Below are positions 2,147-18,099 of a stretch of DNA of 20,040 nucleotides, piece after piece. The translations under genes were made by a program, and so were the position numbers. Position 1 is the first letter of the stretch. The number at the start of each line of letters is the position of its first letter. The DNA lies in IMG/VR virus record IMGVR_UViG_3300020430_001445, positions 1-20,040 of that record. One strand, 5' to 3'. A model generated the notes under the pieces. It was not told the origin of the DNA. It saw only the letters and a list, made by a program, of their open reading frames with translations, and did no database searches. This DNA comes from a virus.

Positions 2147-2638
2147 ATGACTTATAATTATAATCCCAAGCCCAAAAATATTGTCACTGTACACTATGTT
2201 GGTACCTTGGATGATGGTCAAGAGTTTGATAATTCTCACAAAAGAGGTGAGCCGTTAACATTCACGATAGGTAGTGGACAAATGATCCCGGGTTTCGAAG
2301 CGAATGTTATAGGAATGAAAAAAGGAGAGAGTAAAAATTTTACGCTATCTCCGGATGAAGCATATGGACAAGTCAGAGAAAACCTATTTCAGACTTTTCA
2401 GAGAACTCAGTTTCCACCAGATTTTGAGATACAAGTGGGGTCGATGATAAACGTCCCAACCAACGATGGCCAAATATTTCCTGCAACCATTAATTTTGCT
2501 GATGAAGAAAATGTGGTATTGGATTTTAATCACCCAATGGCTGGAAAAAACTTGAACTTCGATATTGAAGTTATTAATATTATAAACGAAAAAGGAGAAA
2601 CACTTGGGGAAGTTGATACAAATGAAGAAACCGGGTAA
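2147..2638 (+). CDS. FKBP-type peptidyl-prolyl cis-trans isomerase, SlyD-like
   Basis: 163 residues, ATG with AAAAGGAG seven bases upstream. FKBP elements are clear: VTVHYVGTLDDGQEFDNS (residues about 13-30), PLTFTIGSGQMIPGFEANVIGMKKGE (38-63), then LSPDEAYG (69-76), the point where SlyD proteins insert the chaperone 'insert-in-flap' domain. Residues about 77-125 make up such an insert, and the chain returns with the FKBP strand LNFDIEVINI. The protein would speed prolyl isomerisation and act as a holdase in the cytoplasm. It lacks SlyD's His/Cys-rich metal tail. It sits between the gp32-like gene and uvsX and overlaps the latter by 35 bases, suggesting translational coupling. Its position in a replication operon is unusual. 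Confidence 0.88.
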   Translation: MTYNYNPKPKNIVTVHYVGTLDDGQEFDNSHKRGEPLTFTIGSGQMIPGFEANVIGMKKGESKNFTLSPDEAYGQVRENLFQTFQRTQFPPDFEIQVGSMINVPTNDGQIFPATINFADEENVVLDFNHPMAGKNLNFDIEVINIINEKGETLGEVDTNEETG

Positions 2639-8233: not shown

Positions 8234-8422
8234 ATGAGAGAACGTTTGGAAATAATTATAGAAGAACTCCGTGCTGCAATGGCCGATGTTGATAAAGTCG
8301 AATCTGGAACCTATGGGTACAAAGCGGCTGCACCTAGGGCTCGCAAAGCAGCTCTTACGGCTATTAAAGAACTTAAAGAGTTGAGAGTTGAAATCCAAGA
8401 AAAAAAGAATTCTCACAATTAA
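8234..8422 (+). CDS. Small histone H1/Hc1-like DNA-binding protein
   Basis: 62 residues, ATG after TAGGAG, nine bases behind nrdJ and presumably co-transcribed. The layout is an N-terminal helix (RERLEIIIEELRAAM), a turn with YGYKAAAPRARKAAL, then a long basic/acidic helix. This matches the N-domain of bacterial histone H1-like proteins (chlamydial Hc1 and short relatives in other bacteria and phages), whose hallmark is 'gnKaAg.RaRKa...ik...qeiR.eI'. The lysine-rich tail of Hc1 is absent. It could bind and compact phage or host DNA. Assigned by eye; a short coiled-coil protein of other function is the alternative. Confidence 0.6.
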   Translation: MRERLEIIIEELRAAMADVDKVESGTYGYKAAAPRARKAALTAIKELKELRVEIQEKKNSHN

Positions 8423-8425
8423 TAC

Positions 8426-8454
8426 TTGACAAACGCCTTTTAATGTGTTATATT
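8426..8454 (+). promoter_or_regulatory. Promoter for the groES-thyX-dnaJ operon
   Basis: TTGACA at 8426-8431, 17 bases, TATATT at 8449-8454 preceded by TGT. The spacer contains the left arm of a 14-bp inverted repeat and the right arm covers +5 to +18, so access by RNA polymerase is probably controlled. Confidence 0.8.
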
Positions 8455-8478
8455 ATTTAATATGTTAAAAGGCGTTTG
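8430..8478 (+). repeat. Perfect 14-bp inverted repeat around a promoter -10 box
   Basis: CAAACGCCTTTTAA (8430-8443) and TTAAAAGGCGTTTG (8465-8478) are exact reverse complements separated by 21 bases holding the -10 box. Equivalent arm positions are 35 bp apart, between three and three and a half helical turns. Only the right arm is in the transcript from this promoter, so the palindrome must act as DNA (operator half-sites or looping) or as a hairpin in read-through RNA from upstream. It is not the CIRCE sequence of HrcA-regulated chaperone genes. Confidence 0.75.
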
Positions 8479-8500
8479 CTATATTTACAGCGGAGGTAAT

Positions 8501-8776
8501 ATGTATTTAGAGCCACATAATCGTCACCTTTTGGTGCACCCCTTAGATGATAAGGAAGAGAAAAAAGGCTTTGTCCTTCCGGAGGGTTACAAGACTCCCC
8601 AAACACCACATGTTATATGTGACGTTCTAGGAAAAGCAGAAGATTGCAAGGTAACAGTGAACATAGGAGATCGAATTGTAGTAGAAAGAACTATGTTGCA
8701 CGAGATAAAAGCAATGGGAGAAACTAATTATCTAGTGCTAGAAAATTATGTTTATGGGAGACTACAAGATGAATAA
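8501..8776 (+). CDS. GroES-like co-chaperonin (gp31-like role)
   Basis: 91 residues from ATG 8501, chosen for the GGAGG six bases upstream; the upstream in-frame ATG at 8462 overlaps the promoter start region and has no such site. The pattern follows GroES: an initial strand with a basic residue (EPHNRHLLVHPL), a loop with GFVLPEG where GroES has GGivLP, V.G.a, then the strand NIGDRIVVER (GroES 'vGD.V.f') and a final LVLENYVYGRL. In T4, gp31 replaces GroES so that GroEL can fold the larger capsid protein. A similar role is plausible but inferred. It overlaps the next gene by 8 bases. No GroEL gene is visible. Confidence 0.75.
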   Translation: MYLEPHNRHLLVHPLDDKEEKKGFVLPEGYKTPQTPHVICDVLGKAEDCKVTVNIGDRIVVERTMLHEIKAMGETNYLVLENYVYGRLQDE

Positions 8777-9596
8777 GAAACAACTAAAAGAAATGATCAA
8801 ACAGGTTATACTTGAAAACAGAAAGAAATCTGTTCTCTTGGAGACCCCTCAATTACATGAAGCAACTTTTGCAAAAGCAGCAGATTATATAGACAACAAG
8901 AAACTACCATTCTTTATTGTGTCTGCTTTTCGTGGAGAACGCGGAACAAAATACAGTAGAAAAAACATATCAGCCGCTGGTGATGTTAAAGATTTCTTAA
9001 AATCTAAGGGATTGTCATATACCATAGTGGATGGTGGCTATACTGAGAAAAAGAGAGACAAAATAACGAAAGAGCCACTTAAAAACCCTGAAACAGGTGA
9101 TCCGGTTTACAGTGTTGAGGAAGAAGAGAGTTATTTGGTGTTTGGGGATGTACCTCATTACGGAGACACATCAGCAGCAGTTACCGATGTACAAGAACTT
9201 TTTGAGATTGCCAAAGAAGCCTGTCTTATTGATCCTGAGAATCCCCAAGAAACTTTCAGTTTCGGATATCCAGTCGATATAATAGAACCGGGTTCAAAAG
9301 AACCTGTTCGCGAAATGCGCATAGCTTTATATGAAAACGATGCTCCGAGTTATGCACGGGAACATATGTTTACCGAATGGGGTGGTCCTTGGAATTCTTT
9401 CGCAAAGATGATGAGTGATGTTGGAGCTTACACTAAGATCAGAGGCACAAAAGGTGCTTTCGCTGAAGAAAAACTTGAAGAAGCTAGGAACATGAAAGTC
9501 AACAGTGTCATGGATGGATACAAAAAACAACATTATGTTGATTACTGGACAAAAATGAAGGCCCGATGGGATCACGAAAACAAAAAGAGGTCTTAA
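8769..9596 (+). CDS. Hypothetical protein with capsid-targeting-like N-terminus
   Basis: 275 residues from ATG 8769, overlapping the GroES-like gene by 8 bases (ATGAATAA) with GGGAG just upstream. The first 30 residues (MNKKQLKEMIKQVILEN, then a second LLETP) look like the amphipathic helix plus L/I-x-E cleavage site of T4 internal head proteins. The body contains FFIVSAFRGERG, a helix KDFLKSKG, a strand SYTIVDGGYTE, and ESYLVFGDVP followed by a helix, which resembles DUF3293-type proteins in order of elements (a weak match from memory). The C-terminal 60 residues are charged and aromatic. It may be packaged in the head and injected; that rests on the N-terminal motif only. Confidence 0.75.
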   Translation: MNKKQLKEMIKQVILENRKKSVLLETPQLHEATFAKAADYIDNKKLPFFIVSAFRGERGTKYSRKNISAAGDVKDFLKSKGLSYTIVDGGYTEKKRDKITKEPLKNPETGDPVYSVEEEESYLVFGDVPHYGDTSAAVTDVQELFEIAKEACLIDPENPQETFSFGYPVDIIEPGSKEPVREMRIALYENDAPSYAREHMFTEWGGPWNSFAKMMSDVGAYTKIRGTKGAFAEEKLEEARNMKVNSVMDGYKKQHYVDYWTKMKARWDHENKKRS

Positions 9597-10310
9597 ATGT
9601 CGTACGAGAATTCAATTAATCTATACGGAGATGGTATAGGTAAAGTTCAATATATTGACCATATGGGCACTGATCTCACAATCGTGAACAGTGCTCGTGT
9701 TTCATTTGGAGTAGAAAAGGAGGAACTAGATGATAGAGATAAGAAGCTTGTTAATTACCTTGTTAAACACAGACACACGAGTACGTTCGAGCACAATGTG
9801 GTTACCTTTAAGTTTGTCGTTCCTCTTTTTGTGCGCTCTCAACATATGCGACACAGGACTTGGAGTTACAACGAGATTTCCAGAAGATATACAGATAAAG
9901 ATCTTGCTTTTTATTGCCCAATGTCATTCCGTACTCAGCATAAGTCCAACAGGCAGTCTTCTAACAAGGATAGAATAGACCCAATACTATTTCCGGACTT
10001 ATCTGATCCTAAATTTGGATTGACTTGTTCGGACTACCTCAGGCAACACACAAAAAGATCAGTGGAATTATTTAATCATTTGATGACTGCGGGAGTGTGC
10101 AGAGAACAAGCACGAATGGTGTTGCCACAAAATATGTATACAGAATATTATGGTACCTGTAACTTAAACAACCTATTGAAGTTCATAGACCTCAGAACCC
10201 ATGAGGGTGCTCAACAAGAGATACAGAACGTGGCGAAAGCATGCTTGATGATAGCATCAGATCTTTGGCCGGAAGCTGTTGGGGCGTATAGGAACCTAAG
10301 ATGTGTTTAA
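9597..10310 (+). CDS. thyX: Flavin-dependent thymidylate synthase
   Basis: 237 residues; ATG abuts the preceding stop with AGAGG upstream. The ThyX signature RHRx7S is intact at residues 85-95 (RHRTWSYNEIS), followed by RRY. The N-terminal NSARVSFG, the HTSTFEHNVVTFKF block, and REQARMVLPQNMYTEYYGTCNLNNLLKFIDLR near the C-terminus are all standard. The enzyme methylates dUMP to dTMP using methylenetetrahydrofolate as carbon donor and FADH2 as reductant, as a homotetramer. Together with NrdJ it gives the phage its own thymidylate route. The last 8 bases overlap the next ORF. Confidence 0.96.
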   Translation: MSYENSINLYGDGIGKVQYIDHMGTDLTIVNSARVSFGVEKEELDDRDKKLVNYLVKHRHTSTFEHNVVTFKFVVPLFVRSQHMRHRTWSYNEISRRYTDKDLAFYCPMSFRTQHKSNRQSSNKDRIDPILFPDLSDPKFGLTCSDYLRQHTKRSVELFNHLMTAGVCREQARMVLPQNMYTEYYGTCNLNNLLKFIDLRTHEGAQQEIQNVAKACLMIASDLWPEAVGAYRNLRCV

Positions 10311-11047: not shown

Positions 11048-11845
11048 GTGCAGGAAATAAATTTATATTATAATAATTTAAACATCGGAAGAACTCTAAC
11101 TTGCCTTCTGCATTCTTTTAAAACAGAGACTCCTTGTATATTAACGCGGCCAACCCCACCATTTAAGTTTGACGAACATATATCACAATACGATTTTACT
11201 TTTCTAGGTATTGAGGGGTCAAACCCACAGCAGGCTTGGGACAGGTTGTGTTTTTTGTTAAGCATGTCTGGACTCTTGTTGTTCCCAAATAATATTTCTA
11301 ATGCACGAATGAACGAGAACATAGTTGATATTGTGACCAACAACAACCAGAGAATAAAAATTGAATGTGAAAATATTAATGTATTTGATAATGACGAAAC
11401 CGGCTGGTATTATGTATATGATTATTTTGATTGGAAATCAGGGTCCCTACATGATCTTGAATTGATCAATGATAATGACGATAATTTTATAAAAAAAATT
11501 ATTTTCTACTCCTCTGAGAGAGAACGTGTTAACAATAATGTCAAAGATTTAGTCGGTGTTTCATATTTAAGGGAGGACGAACTTGAAAATCTTGAATCGT
11601 CATCTGTCTATTCTAGGCTTAAAGTTTTAAGAATGATGAAGGAAGCCGGAATAAAAGGTAGAATAACTGGCTATAACAAAAAGGGCATTGGCTCCTATAC
11701 CGCTCCTGTTATTGAATTTAACAGAAGAATTGTAAAGCCGGATTTCAAGCCAACGATATCACTGAAAGAAGTATATGATATGCCAACAGAACAAGGGTAC
11801 ACATGGAAGTTACTAGAGAAGATAATACAAAGTACTTCCATTTAG
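11048..11845 (+). CDS. Conserved-looking phage protein of unknown function
   Basis: 265 residues from GTG 11048, which abuts the preceding TAA and has GAGG six bases upstream. The N-terminus (NIGRTLTCLLHSFKTETPCIL) has the beta-turn-helix-beta look of the first part of a Rossmann or FAD-binding fold, but the glycine pattern GxGxxG is not present. Later blocks YDYFDW, KDLVGVSYLREDEL, SRLKVLRMMKEAGIKG and YTAPVIEFNRR suggest a structured single-domain protein. It overlaps the nucleotidyltransferase-like gene by 43 bases, so the two are probably made together. I recall similar gene pairs in marine T4-like phages but cannot name the family. Confidence 0.7.
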   Translation: MQEINLYYNNLNIGRTLTCLLHSFKTETPCILTRPTPPFKFDEHISQYDFTFLGIEGSNPQQAWDRLCFLLSMSGLLLFPNNISNARMNENIVDIVTNNNQRIKIECENINVFDNDETGWYYVYDYFDWKSGSLHDLELINDNDDNFIKKIIFYSSERERVNNNVKDLVGVSYLREDELENLESSSVYSRLKVLRMMKEAGIKGRITGYNKKGIGSYTAPVIEFNRRIVKPDFKPTISLKEVYDMPTEQGYTWKLLEKIIQSTSI

Positions 11846-12720
11846 CTGGCATCGTTCCAGTTGCGGGACAATCTCTGGACTTTGATCAACCTTGGCCTGA
11901 CTGCATGATGCCAATTGCTCCTGATTTTAGTTTGTTGGAAGCCGCTGTTGCTGAGTGTGCTTGGGCCGGCTGTGATACAATTTGGATAATTTGCAACGAT
12001 AATATAGCAGCTCTAATAAAAAAGAAAATTGGAGATTTCGTCGGTGATCCCGTGTGGGCTTATCGTAAATTCGATAAGTATCCCAACGAAAGTAAGCGTC
12101 AAATACCTGTTTATTATGTTCCGGTGCATCCAAAAGACAGAGACAAGAGGGATTGCCTAGCTTGGAGTGTCTTGCATGGGTCTTTAACAGCATTCAAAGT
12201 ATCAGACGAGTTGTCTAAGTGGGTTATACCAAACAAATATTATGTTAGCTTCCCTTATGGTTATTTTCCAGCCTATCAACTTCGAGAATATAGAAAAATT
12301 ATTTCGTCCTCAAAGAACGTGTATATAACATCTGACGACAAGTCAATGAAAGATAATTATTATTGCTCTTTTTCTTTTGGAAAGGACGAATTTATAGAAT
12401 TTAGAAGGATAATCAGATCTGGTACAGGCCGTTGGAGACCCGGAGTTGACTATAAAGAGTATGACGCTTTACCAATTGAAGAAAGATGGTCAGCTAGGTT
12501 TTTTGAATTAGAACAAGTGTTTGAGCCATTTGACACCGATCGAGCACAAAAAATACCAGTTGAAAATTTTTATAATATTGGCTCTTGGAAACAGTATAAA
12601 CTCTTTATGTCCGAGAATCTCGATAATGAAATAAAAAGGCCATCAAAAACAATTTTGTTAAATCAAGCTTACAAACCGATTGGGAAAAACTACTTAGAGG
12701 GTGATGCGGAAGAAACTTAA
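11803..12720 (+). CDS. Nucleotidyltransferase-like protein
   Basis: 305 residues; ATG at 11803 lies inside the preceding gene. The first 70 residues read like a nucleotidyltransferase Rossmann start: FHLAGIVPVAGQSLDF.QPWPDCMMPI, then a helix LLEAAVAECAWAGCDTIWIICND, as in sugar-phosphate nucleotidyltransferases ('iiPaaG.g.....p.PK.m.pi...p.ie..i......g...i.iv'). The strict GxGTRxxP motif is altered. QIPVYYVPVHPKDRDKRDCLAWSVLHG (about 105-130) fits the part approaching the metal site. The remainder carries KYYVSFPYGYFPAYQLREYRK and a Tyr/Arg-rich tail. It may modify nucleotides, sugars or DNA of the phage; the substrate cannot be told. Confidence 0.65.
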   Translation: MEVTREDNTKYFHLAGIVPVAGQSLDFDQPWPDCMMPIAPDFSLLEAAVAECAWAGCDTIWIICNDNIAALIKKKIGDFVGDPVWAYRKFDKYPNESKRQIPVYYVPVHPKDRDKRDCLAWSVLHGSLTAFKVSDELSKWVIPNKYYVSFPYGYFPAYQLREYRKIISSSKNVYITSDDKSMKDNYYCSFSFGKDEFIEFRRIIRSGTGRWRPGVDYKEYDALPIEERWSARFFELEQVFEPFDTDRAQKIPVENFYNIGSWKQYKLFMSENLDNEIKRPSKTILLNQAYKPIGKNYLEGDAEET

Positions 12721-13309
12721 ATTTAAAAAATTATTAAATCATTATCGATCTCTCCAATATGAAGAAGAATACGTCAAAGAGGTTCTAAAAGAAGCTCATA
12801 TTGAATTTGACGAATATTATAGGGAATTTTGTAGAATATATCTTGTCAACATAGAGAGGTTGGAAAAAAAGAAAAATGATAGACTCAAAGCAGCCTACGA
12901 ACAGAGTGAAAAACCATCCATGAAAGGCGTTGACGAAAAATTGAGAGCAAAAGATTATGATCATAAAAATGTTTTCAAGCAAATAGCCAGAAAACTCCAT
13001 CCAGACAAATTAAGTGAGGACGATCCGAGACTTAAGGAATTTGAAGATGATTTCAAAACTGCTGCCGCCGGCATCAATGACGGAAACTGGGGTGACTTGT
13101 TTAATATTGCAGAGAAACACGATATTGACATCAAGGATTATGACACAGTTAATGAATCAATTAAGGATTCAATCAAAGTTCTAGTTAAAAAAATAACAGA
13201 ATTAAAAAATCAATATTCTTACATGTTTTACGAGTGTGAAGATGACAAGAACTGTAAAGATAATATAATAAAAAACTTTTTAAGACAAGTATTTGGACAT
13301 AATTTATAA
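12704..13309 (+). CDS. J-domain (DnaJ-like) protein
   Basis: 201 residues from ATG 12704 (a GTG lies one codon earlier), overlapping the previous gene by 17 bases. The first 80 residues form a highly charged, probably coiled-coil helix. The J-domain core follows: VFKQIARKLHPDKLSEDDPRL, with the HPD tripeptide near residue 100, and the third-helix stretch FKTAAAGINDGNWGDLFNIAE, where ordinary J domains have 'f..i..AYe.L.d...r..yD'. This is a shortened J domain with an N-terminal helix, as in small phage J-proteins. It could recruit host DnaK. The C-terminal 60 residues are helical (KVLVKKITELKNQYSYMFYE). It is the last gene of the operon starting at 8426. Confidence 0.78.
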   Translation: MRKKLKFKKLLNHYRSLQYEEEYVKEVLKEAHIEFDEYYREFCRIYLVNIERLEKKKNDRLKAAYEQSEKPSMKGVDEKLRAKDYDHKNVFKQIARKLHPDKLSEDDPRLKEFEDDFKTAAAGINDGNWGDLFNIAEKHDIDIKDYDTVNESIKDSIKVLVKKITELKNQYSYMFYECEDDKNCKDNIIKNFLRQVFGHNL

Positions 13310-13365: not shown

Positions 13366-14316
13366 ATGAAAGAAGTTATGAATCATTGGCGAGGCTTTAT
13401 CAACCCAGATTTGAGCCCAATTATAAAAAAGAGACTGGAAGAGGCTCTCACCCGACGTCAGTTTTTAGCCGGCACTGCTGCTGTTGCTTTACTTTATGCG
13501 ATCATGAATAGTGATTATTTTAAGGCATTAACTGATCAACAGCAAGATGAATTAATTCAGGCTTCACCAGAGGAGTTAGCCTCATTGGGCCTTGAAGACC
13601 CTGCTTATATTAAAGCTGTTCGTGAATACGAGAGGGAAGAGACTGAATCCCCACGTGATAAGTATGAAGGTCTAAGTTCACGGGAAATTAAAGATCTGCA
13701 ATTCTCTACGATTGGAAAGCTAATGATAGCACCAACAAAACTACCAGATGATAGAGAATGGCGCCTAGCACCCACATCACAAAGCCAAGTCAGTGGTTAT
13801 TATGCTTATGCAACAGAGTTGGATTTGGATCTTATAGCAGAAACAAACCCAGAGATAACAAAAGCCATGGATCTCGCATACGATTTTTATAAGGGGTTTG
13901 GTCTAACTAGATTGATGAAGTATGTATATGGACAACCGGAGTTTTTTAGCTATACTACAATGGAAAAAGCGAACGAAGGTCAGTTGTTTGACACCATTGA
14001 AACCGAGGCTACACAAACCAACTACTTGACCGGCAAGACAGAAAACATAAAAGTTAGGAAACTTCCATTAGCTTGGACAGTAGCTAATCGAGTGCTTATA
14101 GACCAAGTTTCTTTTTTAGAATCGGAACTGCAAGAAGCAAAGACAGATGAAGAGATCGATGCTGTTCTAGAAAGGTATGGCGTAGGTACAGAATATGGTA
14201 GTGGTTATTCAAAAACATCGAAATATGATGTGGTTAAAAAATTAAAAAGAATTGCCGGCAATTCTTTGAGTAGAATTGAAGATGACAGCAGGGTTGTTGG
14301 AAAACATAGTAATTAA
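13366..14316 (+). CDS. Hypothetical protein with twin-arginine motif
   Basis: 316 residues from ATG 13366, chosen for the GAGGA upstream; the in-frame ATG at 13327 lies inside the promoter. The start (MKEVMNHWRGFINPDL) resembles the amphipathic N-termini of other proteins here. Residues 27-44 read LTRRQFLAGTAAVALLYA: an S/T-R-R-x-F-L twin-arginine motif followed by a moderately hydrophobic stretch, as in Tat export signals, but with no clear AxA cleavage site. The body is acidic and helical, with KAMDLAYDFYKGFGLTRLMKYVYG and a C-terminal coiled-coil-like region. No enzyme motif is recognised. Membrane anchoring through an uncleaved Tat-like segment is possible. Confidence 0.8.
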   Translation: MKEVMNHWRGFINPDLSPIIKKRLEEALTRRQFLAGTAAVALLYAIMNSDYFKALTDQQQDELIQASPEELASLGLEDPAYIKAVREYEREETESPRDKYEGLSSREIKDLQFSTIGKLMIAPTKLPDDREWRLAPTSQSQVSGYYAYATELDLDLIAETNPEITKAMDLAYDFYKGFGLTRLMKYVYGQPEFFSYTTMEKANEGQLFDTIETEATQTNYLTGKTENIKVRKLPLAWTVANRVLIDQVSFLESELQEAKTDEEIDAVLERYGVGTEYGSGYSKTSKYDVVKKLKRIAGNSLSRIEDDSRVVGKHSN

Positions 14317-14327
14317 TTGGAGGAAAA

Positions 14328-14507
14328 ATGTTAAGAATTGTGAACGTTATTTTATTTATATCAGTGGTCTTGGGTATATATCTCACCACAGAGGTTGATG
14401 ATAAATCAGAAAAACAAGAAGTGGTTGAAATCTATCCGGGTGATACCGCTGATGAGTATGAAAAAATAAAGGAGATTTTAGGGTCCGAAAAGGCTTCGAC
14501 GGAGTAG
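14328..14507 (+). CDS. 59-aa membrane protein whose end overlaps the tmRNA gene
   Basis: ATG at 14328 follows TTGGAGGA. The product has one membrane segment (residues 5-21, VNVILFISVVLGIYLTT) and an acidic tail ending EILGSEKASTE. Its last nine codons and stop (14481-14507) coincide with the first 27 bases of the tmRNA, including the invariant GGCTTCGACGG element, here read as KASTE. Translation of this ORF and formation of mature tmRNA from the same transcript are therefore mutually exclusive at this segment. No family recognised. Confidence 0.6.
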   Translation: MLRIVNVILFISVVLGIYLTTEVDDKSEKQEVVEIYPGDTADEYEKIKEILGSEKASTE

Positions 14508-14812
14508 AATCAAGGGGAGAGTGCATGCAGGGAAGATACGCCCTTAACAGTTCAAGTTTTATAAACGCAAACAATAATTTGTATTTCGAAGAAGCCCTAG
14601 CGGCTTAATCGGGTGGCTGCTCCGAGCCATCTATCCAAGAGGAGCAAAACAACAGGACAGTTGTAAAAATCAAAACAACTCAACGCAACAGGACGGTAAG
14701 CGTTGTTTTATGACCGTCTATCTTTCTGGTTGGAGAAATAATCAGATAAGCATGTGAACGACTCAAACTAAGACTATTGCGGACGCGGGTTCAACTCCCG
14801 CCGGATCCACCA
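14481..14812 (+). ncRNA. ssrA: tmRNA (transfer-messenger RNA), one-piece
   Basis: 332 bases. The tRNA-like ends pair: GGGTCCG (14481-14487) with CGGATCC (14802-14808), including the G3-U70 pair that alanyl-tRNA synthetase recognises, then discriminator A and an encoded CCA. The 5' part has the signature GGCTTCGACGG; the 3' part has a T arm with loop TTCAACT between GCGGG and CCCGC. The reading frame starts at the resume codon GCA (14567) and ends with TAA (14606-14608), coding the tag ANNNLYFEEALAA. A 7-bp hairpin (GGTGGCT/AGCCATC) follows the stop, as in other tmRNAs, and further inverted segments fit the pseudoknot region. It rescues stalled ribosomes and tags products for ClpXP/ClpAP-type proteases. 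All parts needed for function appear intact. Confidence 0.96.
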
Positions 14813-14818
14813 AACATT

Positions 14819-14890
14819 GCGGGTGTGGCTCAGTGGTAGAGCATCGCGTTGCCAACGCGAGGGTCGTGGGTTCGAATCCCATCACCCGCT
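14819..14890 (+). tRNA. tRNA-Gly, anticodon GCC
   Basis: 72 bases. The acceptor GCGGGTG pairs with CACCCGC (14883-14889), with discriminator T as in bacterial tRNA-Gly. The anticodon stem TCGCG/CGCGA encloses loop TTGCCAA (anticodon GCC, reading GGC and GGT). The T arm is GTGGG-TTCGAAT-CCCAT. CCA is not encoded, unlike the adjacent tmRNA, so it must be added by the host enzyme. It starts six bases after the tmRNA end, so the two are probably processed from one precursor. Confidence 0.96.
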
Positions 14891-14912
14891 TATTTTTAAC
14901 TTGGAGGAAAAA

Positions 14913-15077
14913 ATGAAATATTTAAACAGTAAATGGTTTACATTCTTTTGTGTATGCCTTAATTTTTATTTTGCCGTGCAATCCTTTTTCTTAGGAAATT
15001 GGCTTGTGTTTGGCATATGCAGCTTGTTTGCAGCAATCTGTGGTTATAGTTTTTGGTACCAAATGGAGGAAAAATGA
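14913..15077 (+). CDS. 54-aa small membrane protein
   Basis: ATG at 14913 follows TTGGAGGA. The reading frame also stays open upstream across the tRNA, but that part is not coding. There are two hydrophobic, aromatic-rich segments (about residues 8-25 and 28-48) with a short turn, then a charged end WYQMEEK; this predicts a two-helix inner-membrane protein. The stop overlaps the ATG of the following lipoprotein gene. No family is recognised. A role in lysis or superinfection exclusion would suit such a protein but is not shown. Confidence 0.65.
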   Translation: MKYLNSKWFTFFCVCLNFYFAVQSFFLGNWLVFGICSLFAAICGYSFWYQMEEK

Positions 15078-15955
15078 AATATCTATTACCTTTTTTATTA
15101 GCTTGCACGGAAGTGTCTATTAACAAAATACCAACAGATCCTGTTGATACATCGAAACCCATAGCGGATACCACAGAACCTTCACAGCCGGCCTCTGAGC
15201 CCTCTGTGGAGCCTATGGAAGGTATCGGAGGGTATGTACACTACTATCTTCGTCAAGTGGCTTGTCCGGCTTGTATGGGCGAATCAAATGAGATTACGGT
15301 TGAGTTTGATGCAAGGTTTCACGATAGAACTTTTGATACCTACACAAGGCACATTCCCGAACAAGGTCAGTGCACCCAAAGTATAACTCAGATATGGCCA
15401 AACTTACCCCTAATAGATATGGGATCAGAAATAAAAGCCAGAGCTAACAATTCGACTATTCATGCGTACCGAACAAGCCAAAATAATTATTTTTATGCTT
15501 GGTATACAGATGCCTCTTATATAAGAGACACTGTACACTCTATATCTCGCGAGGATAACTATGAATTTGCAGAGTTCACATCGTTTCATGGTTTCGATTA
15601 CATTGAGCCTTATGAGTTACGCTTTGTAGATCCTTCGTATGCTTTTGCTGCTCCGATATACCGTTCTGGTGCGACTTTCTGGTGGGCTCCCTATGGTACC
15701 AACACTACCTTTACAATAACGCTAGCAGTATATACTCCTGACGGCTCATCGTTGTTAGGTTATGTTGCCTGTTCAGGTGGTGACTCTGGCATGATGACCG
15801 TTCCCGGACAATATTTGTCCTCTTATCCCTATGGGGCTCTTGTCGCTGTGCATATGGCTCGGCACAAAGTTGAGCTAGTACCATGGGAAGAACAAAACAC
15901 TTTCCTTGAAACACATATGGAGTGGGAAGTAATAGGAACAGGACATATAGAATGA
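15074..15955 (+). CDS. Predicted secreted lipoprotein
   Basis: 293 residues from ATG 15074, chosen for GGAGG seven bases upstream and the start MKYLLPFLLAC, a very short signal peptide whose LLAC is a lipobox (lipidation at Cys11). A 35-residue linker rich in Pro, Ser, Thr and acidic residues follows (about 15-50, with DTTEPSQPASEPSVEP), then a globular part with a CPAC motif (about residues 62-65), many Tyr/Trp/Phe residues and alternating beta-type segments. Such linkers are typical of surface lipoproteins of Deltaproteobacteria and Myxococcota, so the gene may derive from the host. A lipoprotein on the infected cell could block receptors. It overlaps clpS by 4 bases (ATGA). Confidence 0.75.
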   Translation: MKYLLPFLLACTEVSINKIPTDPVDTSKPIADTTEPSQPASEPSVEPMEGIGGYVHYYLRQVACPACMGESNEITVEFDARFHDRTFDTYTRHIPEQGQCTQSITQIWPNLPLIDMGSEIKARANNSTIHAYRTSQNNYFYAWYTDASYIRDTVHSISREDNYEFAEFTSFHGFDYIEPYELRFVDPSYAFAAPIYRSGATFWWAPYGTNTTFTITLAVYTPDGSSLLGYVACSGGDSGMMTVPGQYLSSYPYGALVAVHMARHKVELVPWEEQNTFLETHMEWEVIGTGHIE

Positions 15956-16254
15956 CAAAGAAGCAAAAAGACATATTAATAAAAGATAGACAGAAGATCG
16001 GAAGACCAAAGAAATACAAAGTTGTTTTCTACAATGACGACTATACTCCTATGTTCTTGGTCACTTCGATATTGATAGAAGTATTTAATAAAGGATTACC
16101 CGAAGCACAATCGATTATGATGAGGGTACACAAACAAGGAAAAGGAGTAGCAGGTGTCTATTCAAAAGAAATCGCACAAACAAAAGTTGAAACAACAAAA
16201 ATGTATGCAAGAGAAGCAGGATACCCGCTCCACGCCGAAGCAGAACCAGAGTAG
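15952..16254 (+). CDS. clpS: ClpS, adaptor of the ClpAP protease
   Basis: 100 residues from ATG 15952, overlapping the preceding stop by 4 bases. After a basic N-terminal extension (1-20), the fold matches ClpS from end to end: KYKVVFYNDDYTPM (21-34) with the N-degron pocket residues Asn28 and Asp29, then ILIEVF, VHKQGKGVAGVYSKEIAQTKV with pocket His60, and YAREAGYPLHAEAEPE. E. coli ClpS has 106 residues and the same NDDYTPM and VH.QGK..cGv motifs. ClpS delivers N-end-rule substrates to ClpA and is known to hinder ClpAP degradation of ssrA-tagged proteins. Here it lies 1.1 kb from a tmRNA gene. No clpA or clpP is seen, so it would act on the host protease. Confidence 0.95.
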   Translation: MTKKQKDILIKDRQKIGRPKKYKVVFYNDDYTPMFLVTSILIEVFNKGLPEAQSIMMRVHKQGKGVAGVYSKEIAQTKVETTKMYAREAGYPLHAEAEPE

Positions 16255-16306: not shown

Positions 16307-16555
16307 TTGTTATCTTCTTACCCTTTTGACGTTGACTATGAGGTTGGTGACCTAGTGATGCTAGCCCACCCAGTTGAATTCATGGGGGACTTCGTCGACC
16401 GAGGCGAGGTAGGAATAATAGTTAAATTATACGATCGTACATATGGATCACATATCATATATGATTGTAGAATTCTTCTGGGCTGCGGGAGCCATTTGGA
16501 CTGTTGGTTTTCTGAGTTGATCAATGTAACAAGGTTGTCAAATGGCAATCTTTAA
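16307..16555 (+). CDS. Small protein, first of three tandem SH3/KOW-like proteins
   Basis: 82 residues if started at TTG 16307 (GTTGGGGG about ten bases upstream); no better start precedes the conserved part. The order YEVGDLVMLAHP, then RGEVGIIVKLYDR, a strand HIIYDCRILL and a final FSELINV matches its two neighbours and points to a small beta-barrel. Cysteines 54 and 60 lie in the loop LLGCGSH and a third follows at 66 (LDCW). Overlaps the next gene by 14 bases. Function unknown. Confidence 0.6.
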   Translation: MLSSYPFDVDYEVGDLVMLAHPVEFMGDFVDRGEVGIIVKLYDRTYGSHIIYDCRILLGCGSHLDCWFSELINVTRLSNGNL

Positions 16556-16769
16556 AGAAAAATTTGATGTAGGAGACTTAGTTATACTTAACACCTCATT
16601 CCCTAGTGTTTTGAAAAATCAACTGGGGATTATTATTCAAATCGGAGTAAACACGGTATATCAGTTAGAAGAAAACATACAGGAAAATTGGTATGTCGCG
16701 CAGTTTGGCTCAATCAGATTAATAGTTAGTGTTGATATGATTATAAAAGTTGAAACAAAAAATGAGTGA
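16542..16769 (+). CDS. Small protein, second of three tandem SH3/KOW-like proteins
   Basis: 75 residues, ATG inside the end of the previous gene. FDVGDLVILNTSF, QLGIIIQIGVN, a strand WYVAQFGSIRLIV and the ending VDMIIKVE follow the same plan as the flanking proteins: G-D-L-V, then G-I-I, then an edge strand and a terminal I-K-V. Overlap with the next gene is 8 bases, so expression is likely coupled. Function unknown. Confidence 0.65.
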   Translation: MAIFKEKFDVGDLVILNTSFPSVLKNQLGIIIQIGVNTVYQLEENIQENWYVAQFGSIRLIVSVDMIIKVETKNE

Positions 16770-16989
16770 CATAAACATCGGCGATTTGGTTCGCTTAAAG
16801 AAGGAGCATGACCCAGAGGGCAAGATAGGAATAGTCACAGACATTAGCCCAAGATATTCTCACCTAGTTTCACATGGAAAGACAAAGGTTATAAGAATAT
16901 ATTGGCCAACCATCGATACAATCGATTGGGAATATGATTTTTTTCTAGAAAAAATTGACCCAAAGGACTTGACAGAAGATAAAGAATAG
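16762..16989 (+). CDS. Small protein, third of three tandem SH3/KOW-like proteins
   Basis: 75 residues from ATG 16762 (a TTG at 16750 is the alternative). INIGDLVRLKKEHDPEGKIGIVTDI is close to the KOW-like pattern of RNA- and ribosome-binding barrels ('.GD.V.l........iGiV.di'), then a strand KVIRIYWP and the end FFLEKIDP. The promoter for the protease-methyltransferase gene overlaps its last codons. KOW/SH3 folds often bind nucleic acid or RNA polymerase, but nothing here shows the partner. Confidence 0.7.
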   Translation: MSDINIGDLVRLKKEHDPEGKIGIVTDISPRYSHLVSHGKTKVIRIYWPTIDTIDWEYDFFLEKIDPKDLTEDKE

Positions 16990-17016: not shown

Positions 17017-18099
17017 ATGATTTTTATATGGAACTATGCCTTTAGGCATTTAATGAAAAAATATTGGGGAAACAGGTACAGATCGATACCAGTTTTCCAT
17101 ATGGAACTGGCAGGAGATATGCTGGGTAATTTTAGACATGATAAGAATGGTTTCAACACTATTTGTTTAGCCAACAACCAAGGACTTACAGATAGGCAAT
17201 TGATGGGTGTTCTATTGCACGAAATGTGCCACCACGTTGCTTATGAGAAGCATGGAATGGATATTGATGCTCATGGGGCCGAATGGGAAACCGAGATGAA
17301 ATTTGTAGGGTTTGAATATCCCATAGACCAAGACACAGATGGCACAGAATTCTTTTCCGAAGAAGAGTATCAAGAGATACTTCGGTTATTACCCGGAGAA
17401 CAAGAGACCTTTGAGTGGACTGACTCTTTGACTTTTATGAAAAAAATGGAAAAGAATTGTGTTGACTTAGTTTTAACCGACCCGCCATATATCATAAGTA
17501 AACCTTCGGGATTCAAAAGTGTTAAAGAAGGAGTGGAGCGTTTTGCTGTGTCGACCGAACATGGAGAATGGGACAAAGAGGAAAATTTTTCTCTGAAAGA
17601 TTTGCGAGATTCCGTAAAAGAGTATTATCGTGTATTAAAGAAGCACGGTACTGCTATTGTCTTTTGCGATCTCTGGAAGATCACAGACGTAAAGCGTATA
17701 ATGGAAGAAGTAGGCTTTAAGCAAATTCGCTTCATAGAGTGGCTCAAAACAAATCCGGTCCCTCTCAATTCGAGCAGGAACTATCTTACAAACGCCAGAG
17801 AGGTCGCTCTCCTAGGCGTAAAGGTCAGCAAGCCCACGTTTCATTCGAGCTATGATAATGGGATTTATCAATTACCGATTTGCCACGAGAAAGGTAGGTT
17901 TCACCCAACACAAAAGCCTCTTATGCTGATGCAACTGTTAATAGAAAAACATAGTAACCCGGGAGACGTGGTATTGGACACATTCGCCGGAGCAGCGACC
18001 ACGCTGCTCGCCGCCAAAAATTTAGGCCGTGGATTCCTTGGTTGTGAACTTGACGAAGAATTCTTTGTTAAAGCAGAGAAACGACTCTTCGATCTCTAA
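17017..18099 (+). CDS. Fusion of SprT-like metalloprotease domain and DNA methyltransferase
   Basis: 360 residues in one frame. Residues 1-100: a SprT-like zinc metallopeptidase with HEMCH at 68-72 (His68, Glu69, His72) and a third ligand His86 in AHGAEW, the SprT/Spartan pattern 'HE..H......H...W'. Residues about 130-360: a beta-class amino-methyltransferase with catalytic motif IV DPPY (155-158) before the AdoMet-binding motif I DTFAGA (321-326), and HPTQKP (296-301) just ahead, as in N6-adenine and N4-cytosine enzymes. FEWTDSLTFMKKM at 132-144 is the usual methyltransferase beginning, so the junction is near residue 120-130. SprT-type enzymes cut proteins crosslinked to DNA; the other domain methylates DNA. 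No restriction gene is next to it, so methylation may protect phage DNA. Confidence 0.88.
   Translation: MIFIWNYAFRHLMKKYWGNRYRSIPVFHMELAGDMLGNFRHDKNGFNTICLANNQGLTDRQLMGVLLHEMCHHVAYEKHGMDIDAHGAEWETEMKFVGFEYPIDQDTDGTEFFSEEEYQEILRLLPGEQETFEWTDSLTFMKKMEKNCVDLVLTDPPYIISKPSGFKSVKEGVERFAVSTEHGEWDKEENFSLKDLRDSVKEYYRVLKKHGTAIVFCDLWKITDVKRIMEEVGFKQIRFIEWLKTNPVPLNSSRNYLTNAREVALLGVKVSKPTFHSSYDNGIYQLPICHEKGRFHPTQKPLMLMQLLIEKHSNPGDVVLDTFAGAATTLLAAKNLGRGFLGCELDEEFFVKAEKRLFDL

Follow-up and report, generated by a model that had tools for sequence, protein, structure and literature searches.

The window analyzed here, the complete 20,040-base IMG/VR virus record IMGVR_UViG_3300020430_001445, encodes a transfer-messenger RNA (tmRNA, the product of ssrA), a tRNA-Gly and the protease adaptor ClpS in close succession (Table 1). 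An earlier note on this DNA had suggested that the tmRNA and ClpS act as a pair, rescuing stalled ribosomes while steering the host protease ClpAP. We favor a different reading: the two probably belong, as separate components, to a proteostasis kit of the phage that is directed at one host pathway, and do not form a dedicated two-gene device, because the tmRNA gene has moved in one branch of the phage family (G012, G015, and G016; G numbers denote contigs, L numbers denote loci, and IMG/VR contigs are fragments), because a related contig with ClpS (G019) lacks a tmRNA, and because outside this family tmRNA occurs no more often near ClpS than near ClpX. As predicted from sequence, the kit in the window consists of the tmRNA, ClpS, a J-domain-like protein, a GroES-like protein, and an FKBP isomerase, to which the longer contig G001 (187,355 bases) adds ClpP, GroEL, and a trypsin-like protease. 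The window is identical to G001 at 14,086 of 14,089 compared positions; judged by this alignment, the two are almost one large, uncultured phage and are not independent samples.

The tmRNA, tRNA-Gly, and ClpS genes lie where the earlier note had placed them, ARAGORN, Rfam RF00023, and Pfam PF02617 being in agreement, and on these scores we rejected a chance origin of the tmRNA and ClpS matches. The tmRNA (103.3 bits; gathering score 47) spans model positions 1–374, and its tag reading frame is open, ends with a stop codon, and encodes a hydrophobic C-terminus. According to ARAGORN, family tmRNAs carry the tag ANNNLYFEEALAA, ANNNLFFDEVALAA, or ANNNLFFEEVALAA. We aligned 11 family sequences, leaving out G001 (the same as the window) and G015. 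Mean column identity was 87%, and compensatory changes on both sides were found at 21 of the 70 pairs predicted by a consensus fold without pseudoknots. The G3-U70 pair of the tRNA-like domain, a G-U at the third acceptor pair and the alanine identity element, was present in all 11 sequences. The window encodes the 3' CCA, as do 10 of the 11 rows; G004 ends in TCA. From the compensatory changes and the invariant G3-U70, the tmRNA looks functional and is kept by selection. The tRNA-Gly gene adjoins the tmRNA gene in G008 and G010 as well, and in the same-species contig G001. When the tmRNA was compared with the phage collection by blastn, 57 records matched and none covered 80% of the query; among the 20 matches listed, query cover was 14% and all were mycobacteriophages.

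Two side observations concern tmRNA genes. Tags starting with ANNN occur in other one-piece phage tmRNAs (L326:11884-12222, L327:8472-8819, and L320:16357-16742, with ANNNYYYEEVRLAA, ANNNKHFEAAAIAA, and ANNNNYFEVAQAA, respectively). A 59-residue open reading frame (ORF) at 14328-14507 of the window overlaps the tmRNA gene by 27 bases on the same strand, and L006 has a piece 64% similar to it 5' of its tmRNA.

The window ClpS scored 96.6 bits on PF02617 against a cut-off of 23, matched ClpS chains of the PDB (E 4.5e-18), and aligned without gaps to E. coli ClpS (window number = E. coli number minus 6). It is identical to the E. coli protein at 11 of 11 compared positions (N34, D35, D36, T38, P39, M40, V43, M62, V65, H66, and L99), which we take to be the N-degron pocket residues; the pocket thus appears intact, as the earlier note had held. 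The docking positions E79 and K84, presumably those that contact ClpA, are kept as E73 and K78. The N-terminal extension has about 18 residues, and of the two junction prolines one remains (P19, the same in all 13 aligned rows) and the other is Arg, the E. coli protein having Pro24-Pro25 there according to excerpts of PMC9663308 (the other PMC papers are likewise cited for excerpts, unless their text is named). Because mean pN/pS was 0.20 (maximum 0.32; 45 pairs from ten family ClpS genes), ClpS looks functional and is under purifying selection. In a wider pocket census over 80 ClpS loci the letters N34 to M40 are biased, being part of the scan pattern.

To place the pair in related phages we drew on a ClpS scan, which returned seven loci, and a tag-pattern scan, which returned 15 viral contigs. 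ClpS was found in 10 of the 15 tag-bearing contigs (G001, G002, G004, G005, G006, G009, G010, G012, G013, and G016), and the other five end before the place of ClpS: G008 inside the lipoprotein gene, G011, G014, and G017 inside the tmRNA, and G015 just beyond the polymerase gene. The tmRNA and ClpS therefore occur together in 10 of 10 contigs that reach the ClpS place, and the pair is conserved in relatives in this sense, as had been predicted. Its spacing is less constant. The distance in the window is the 1.1 kb given in the earlier note (1,139 nt from tmRNA end to ClpS start), and in seven of the ten contigs it is 1.0–2.6 kb; a general co-occurrence within 5 kb holds for these seven and fails for G013 (7.4 kb) and for G012 and G016 (about 23 kb). 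In G012, G015, and G016 the genes for ClpP, amidase, and GroEL precede the tmRNA. The family accordingly has two places for tmRNA, one in the stretch with the J-domain-like, lipoprotein, and ClpS genes and one beside ClpP, amidase, and GroEL. The genes that separate tmRNA and ClpS also vary among relatives. Loci L004 and L087 are not scorable for tmRNA, since their sequence begins within the lipoprotein gene or shortly ahead of it.

A sister clade (L091, L092, L095, L107, and L108) has the gene order ThyX, two unnamed proteins, J-like protein, lipoprotein, ClpS, with ThyX outside the L091 locus. No tmRNA was found in these five loci, nor was one found over the cut-off when the contigs of the first four (G018, G019, G020, and G029) were searched whole. 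Both possible tmRNA places are covered only in G019, which keeps genes for ClpS, ClpP, GroEL, a GroES-like protein, and a J-like protein; the other sister contigs end in or near GroEL. As ClpS and chaperones but no tmRNA were found in this clade, the tmRNA is, by gene content, the variable part of the kit, and ClpS with the chaperones the constant part.

One explanation for a variable tmRNA beside a constant ClpS is that a mobile tmRNA/tRNA island landed beside an older ClpS locus, the tmRNA being a spare or serving in tmRNA-poor hosts and its closeness to ClpS being meaningless. The stretch from the J-like gene to ClpS does hold tRNA-Gly, tRNA-Ala, tRNA-Asp, or tRNA-Met in different relatives. 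However, the 11 aligned tmRNAs have been kept with compensatory changes, and in the branch where the tmRNA has moved it sits about 2–4 kb from GroEL and 5–7 kb from ClpP. We consider such hitch-hiking unlikely.

Another possibility is a true module, in which the phage tags broken products, ClpS shields them from ClpAP, and the interaction keeps the two genes together. In its favor are the ten contigs with both genes, seven of them with the genes within 3 kb, and the property of E. coli ClpS, correctly cited in the earlier note and established in excerpts of PMC9663308, of favoring N-degron substrates and inhibiting ssrA-tagged ones. On the other hand, the separation of about 23 kb in G012 and G016, the variable intervening genes, and the sister clade with ClpS and without tmRNA count against a module.

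A module might also be expected to show as a general association of tmRNA with ClpS. We compared the best 80 of 271 ClpS loci with the best 80 of at least 552 ClpX loci and the best 80 of at least 528 ThyX loci. A tmRNA lay within 10 kb in 14 of the 80 ClpS loci: eight of the window family, L106, L135, and the near-copies L139 and L141–L143. Merging near-copies left 69, 69, and 63 groups of ClpS, ClpX, and ThyX loci, and lists compiled by hand served to take out the window family (10 ClpS and 11 ThyX loci). A tmRNA was then present within 10 kb in 3 of 59 ClpS, 6 of 69 ClpX, and 1 of 52 ThyX loci. There is no sign of a general ClpS association: the frequency of tmRNA near ClpS does not exceed that near ClpX, and the counts are too low to tell ClpS from ThyX. 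The ClpX and ClpS sets overlap, ClpS being present within 10 kb in 56 of the 80 ClpX loci. Of the six ClpX loci with tmRNA, four include ClpS as well, 9–13 kb from a two-piece tmRNA, which can be counted for a module; yet among the best 80 ClpX loci tmRNA is equally rare with ClpS (4/56) and without it (2/24).

Whole contigs were searched for one-piece tmRNA for 50 of the 80 ClpS loci and separately for ten more, the remaining 20, including L108, being covered at the locus only; the two-piece model RF01849 was run on six records. The 50 yielded four one-piece tmRNAs over the cut-off, three of them at least 36 kb from ClpS (one at a contig end). The fourth is that of L106 (tag ANNNYYYESARLAA), where the tmRNA (8392-8802) and ClpS (9980-10300) are 1.2 kb apart with one gene between them. 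Within the 20 kb of L106 no match at E 1e-5 was found for 22 window proteins or six Clp/chaperone queries, so that this close pair, without detected window-type genes, is a further point for a module. Taken together, we regard a dedicated module as distinctly improbable, and this part of the earlier proposal is not borne out.

Some observations on these ClpS loci stand apart from the question of tmRNA. A small heat-shock gene starts at most 1.2 kb upstream of ClpS in 14 of the 69 dereplicated phage ClpS loci (L101, L105, L113, L118, L121, L128, L130, L135, L139, L146, L148, L150, L155, and L158), and this recurrent neighborhood of ClpX, small heat-shock protein, and ClpS is commoner than the tmRNA link. 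By eye, the L106 ORF at 11145-11609 also resembles a small heat-shock protein. Matches labeled "Acinetobacter phage MD-2021a" (H1 and H2) were dropped as phage ClpS because their neighbors (clpA, argC, rpiA, and others) are bacterial genes; the records L009 and L010, which bear this label, resemble bacterial chromosome contigs around clpS-clpA.

No AAA_2 unfoldase (ClpA, ClpB, or ClpX type) was detected in 13 family contigs, two of 187 and 192 kb included, and no SmpB in the 18 records searched. It follows that, provided that they are active and that the contigs miss nothing, ClpS and tmRNA of the phage must use ClpA, ClpX, and SmpB of the host. This dependence also fits a decoy, in which ClpS blocks the ClpA N-domain to switch ClpAP off for host substrates, or marks specific host proteins for removal, and the tmRNA is unrelated. 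The retained docking positions and pocket of the window ClpS are consistent with this, as is the suggestion, in excerpts of PMC7824862, that the ClpS of jumbo phages delivers targets to host ClpAP; the steering of host ClpAP by a phage ClpS, as the earlier note envisaged it, had thus already been proposed in print for those phages. However, an intact substrate pocket suggests delivery over mere blocking, and no target is known. We hold the decoy to be quite unlikely.

Seven of the 13 family contigs encode ClpP. The protein retains the catalytic Ser and His (for example L075:11368-12009), and the Asp position is occupied by Asn in all seven, G001 having been aligned and the other six compared by eye. 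An apparent TAG inside the gene was rejected, being only the gene's own stop codon. The Ser-His-Asn variant resembles ClpP paralogues that function solely as part of mixed rings. Highly doubtful, in our opinion, is a two-channel disposal on borrowed unfoldases, in which the tmRNA would feed ClpX, ClpS would direct ClpA from tagged products to N-degron and aggregated host proteins, and phage ClpP would join host ClpP and alter its output; if true, the virus would have taken over the entire Clp pathway with no unfoldase of its own.

In the kit that we favor, the parts might work as follows. During infection many mRNAs would be cut, and ribosomes would stall on the broken messages. A host enzyme would charge the phage tmRNA with alanine by way of G3-U70, with host SmpB as its partner, and the tmRNA would free the ribosomes and, by adding the tag ...ALAA, mark the broken products for host Clp proteases. 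Phage ClpS, docked on host ClpA, would bias ClpAP in favor of N-degron substrates and protein aggregates and against ssrA-tagged proteins, so that tagged products would fall mainly to ClpXP. In this way tmRNA and ClpS would both keep host translation and proteolysis usable for virus production.

Several points weigh against this interpretation. The contigs are fragments, and an unfoldase could sit beyond them. Two tag-pattern scans of the genome collection for the host gave 0 matches each, with patterns that do not fit all ANNN tags, and the presence of ClpA in the host is therefore an assumption of this reading. With its Asn in place of the catalytic Asp, the family ClpP may be a head-maturation protease or inactive, and sequence similarity to J-domain and GroES proteins is weak. 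The counts of 3/59 for ClpS and 1/52 for ThyX are too few to exclude a weak association. Finally, pairs within 3 kb in 7 of 10 contigs, together with the unrelated L106, leave room for a closer functional link.

Both components have been described in phages before. In excerpts of PMC9004378, 402 of 18,146 phages carry tmRNA, and upkeep of hijacked machinery or tagging of host proteins is proposed as its role. Methylophage Melnitz and mycobacteriophages have a complete ssrA gene, as the window does, but the Melnitz tmRNA is two-piece, under a glutamine riboswitch (PMC9004378, excerpts), and the window tmRNA is one-piece with a different tag. The text of the Melnitz paper (PMC9004378) mentions ClpS 0 times. 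Among jumbo phages, PA5oct, Atu_ph07, SCTP-2, Phosso, and Vibrio phage 2.275.O encode ClpS proteins 31–33% identical to that of the window, and Atu_ph07 has seven Clp-type proteins, ClpS among them (PMC6102473, excerpts). Unlike the window family, all five encode AAA_2 unfoldases, one or more each, and in four of the five ClpS lies beside ClpX or a small heat-shock protein. No one-piece tmRNA over the cut-off was found in these five phages, and queries with PA5oct ClpX and small heat-shock protein gave no match in the main-clade loci L002–L007 and L087–L090.

The nearest parallel among isolates is Sinorhizobium phage Phosso, which has ClpS and tmRNA in one genome as the window family does; its tmRNA, however, is of the two-piece alpha type and about 48 kb from ClpS. 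Jumbo phage AP-J-162 carries a tmRNA and six Clp-type ORFs (PMC11242549, excerpts). Pseudomonas phage pf16 also encodes an adaptor of the ssrA-degradation pathway, SspB instead of ClpS, and its authors found no tmRNA in it (PMC5587285, excerpts). We found no report of a linked phage tmRNA-ClpS pair in a literature search mostly at title and abstract level, where subscription papers are poorly covered. Phage tmRNA and phage ClpS have thus each been published; their linked combination with ClpP and GroEL, without an own ClpA or ClpX, seems to be new.

Table 1. Coordinates of RNA and protein features in the window
Feature	Position	Strand	Basis
FKBP-type peptidyl-prolyl isomerase	2147..2638	+	PF00254, E 5.7e-24
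GroES-like co-chaperonin (putative)	8462..8776	+	Profile match to chaperonin chain 7ekq_P, E 2.4e-7
J-domain-like protein, HPD motif	12701..13309	+	Weak profile match to DnaJ chain, best E 0.0017
One-piece tmRNA (ssrA)	14481..14812	+	ARAGORN; Rfam RF00023, 103.3 bits, E 9.2e-40
tmRNA tag reading frame, ANNNLYFEEALAA + stop	14567..14608	+	ARAGORN, gene positions 87-128
tRNA-Gly (gcc), CCA not encoded	14819..14890	+	74.5 bits
Small hydrophobic protein	14913..15077	+	Best family match E 0.15
Predicted lipoprotein, LLAC box by eye, adjoins ClpS	15074..15955	+	ORF list
ClpS adaptor, 100 aa	15952..16254	+	Pfam PF02617, E 7.6e-28

The lipoprotein stop codon overlaps the ClpS start codon (ATGA), an arrangement that suggests translational coupling of the two genes in the window. 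A lipoprotein homologue lies 5' of ClpS in the main-clade loci and in the five sister loci, and downstream of ClpS in G012 and G016. Homologues of the small hydrophobic protein adjoin the lipoprotein gene in L005, L006, L007, and L090. As a separate observation, the lipoprotein gene and ClpS of L004 are separated by genes (937-2357) that by eye resemble those for acyl-CoA thioesterase and glutamine synthetase.

The earlier note saw neither a TTGACA-type promoter nor a terminator between the tmRNA and ClpS. This is only roughly right: one promoter-like site (9/12, at 15575-15604) and one terminator-like site (15737-15759) are present there on the + strand. The scanned 5 kb held 17 promoter-like sites (13.5 +/- 3.7 expected) and 6 terminator-like sites (3.5 +/- 2.1 expected), numbers that equal or slightly exceed chance; the scan is not decisive. 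The T4-type late promoter TATAAATA occurred 3 times in the window against 1.6 expected.

Beyond the kit, window proteins matched gp32-like single-stranded DNA-binding protein, UvsX/RecA, 5'-3' exonuclease, DnaB-like helicase, and B12-type ribonucleotide reductase, and ThyX is encoded as well. Outside the window, G001 encodes UvdE, a DNA polymerase III alpha-like protein, and an amidase, along with ClpP (PF00574, E 2.3e-37), GroEL (PF00118, E 4.3e-65), and the trypsin-like protease (E 2.8e-20). Bacterial contamination was rejected: gp32, UvsX, and phage-type replication genes are present, and no ClpA follows ClpS, unlike in bacterial contigs. The phage assignment is based on the window genes listed in this paragraph, on the FKBP isomerase, and on the IMG/VR record; head and tail genes were not searched for. 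As a single sequence the GroES-like protein fell short of the cut-off (Cpn10, E 0.04), and the HPD motif of the J-domain-like protein is kept in 10 of 10 aligned homologues.

Two further features lie 3' of ClpS. Three consecutive small ORFs (16307-16989) have a GDLV motif near each start and no firm family match. The ORF at 17017-18096 fuses a SprT-like zincin domain (E 1.8e-8) to an N6/N4 DNA methyltransferase domain (E 8.5e-36), and its homologues are found 3' of ClpS in main-clade relatives.

These data separate a conserved core of the kit (ClpS, ClpP, GroEL, and the GroES-like and J-like proteins) from a variable tmRNA. They provide a natural case of a virus with both a ribosome-rescue RNA and a protease adaptor of a type known to act against its tag, with no linking unfoldase in the contigs. 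This would make it testable why phages carry tmRNA: for ribosome rescue, for amino-acid recycling, or for steering host proteolysis.

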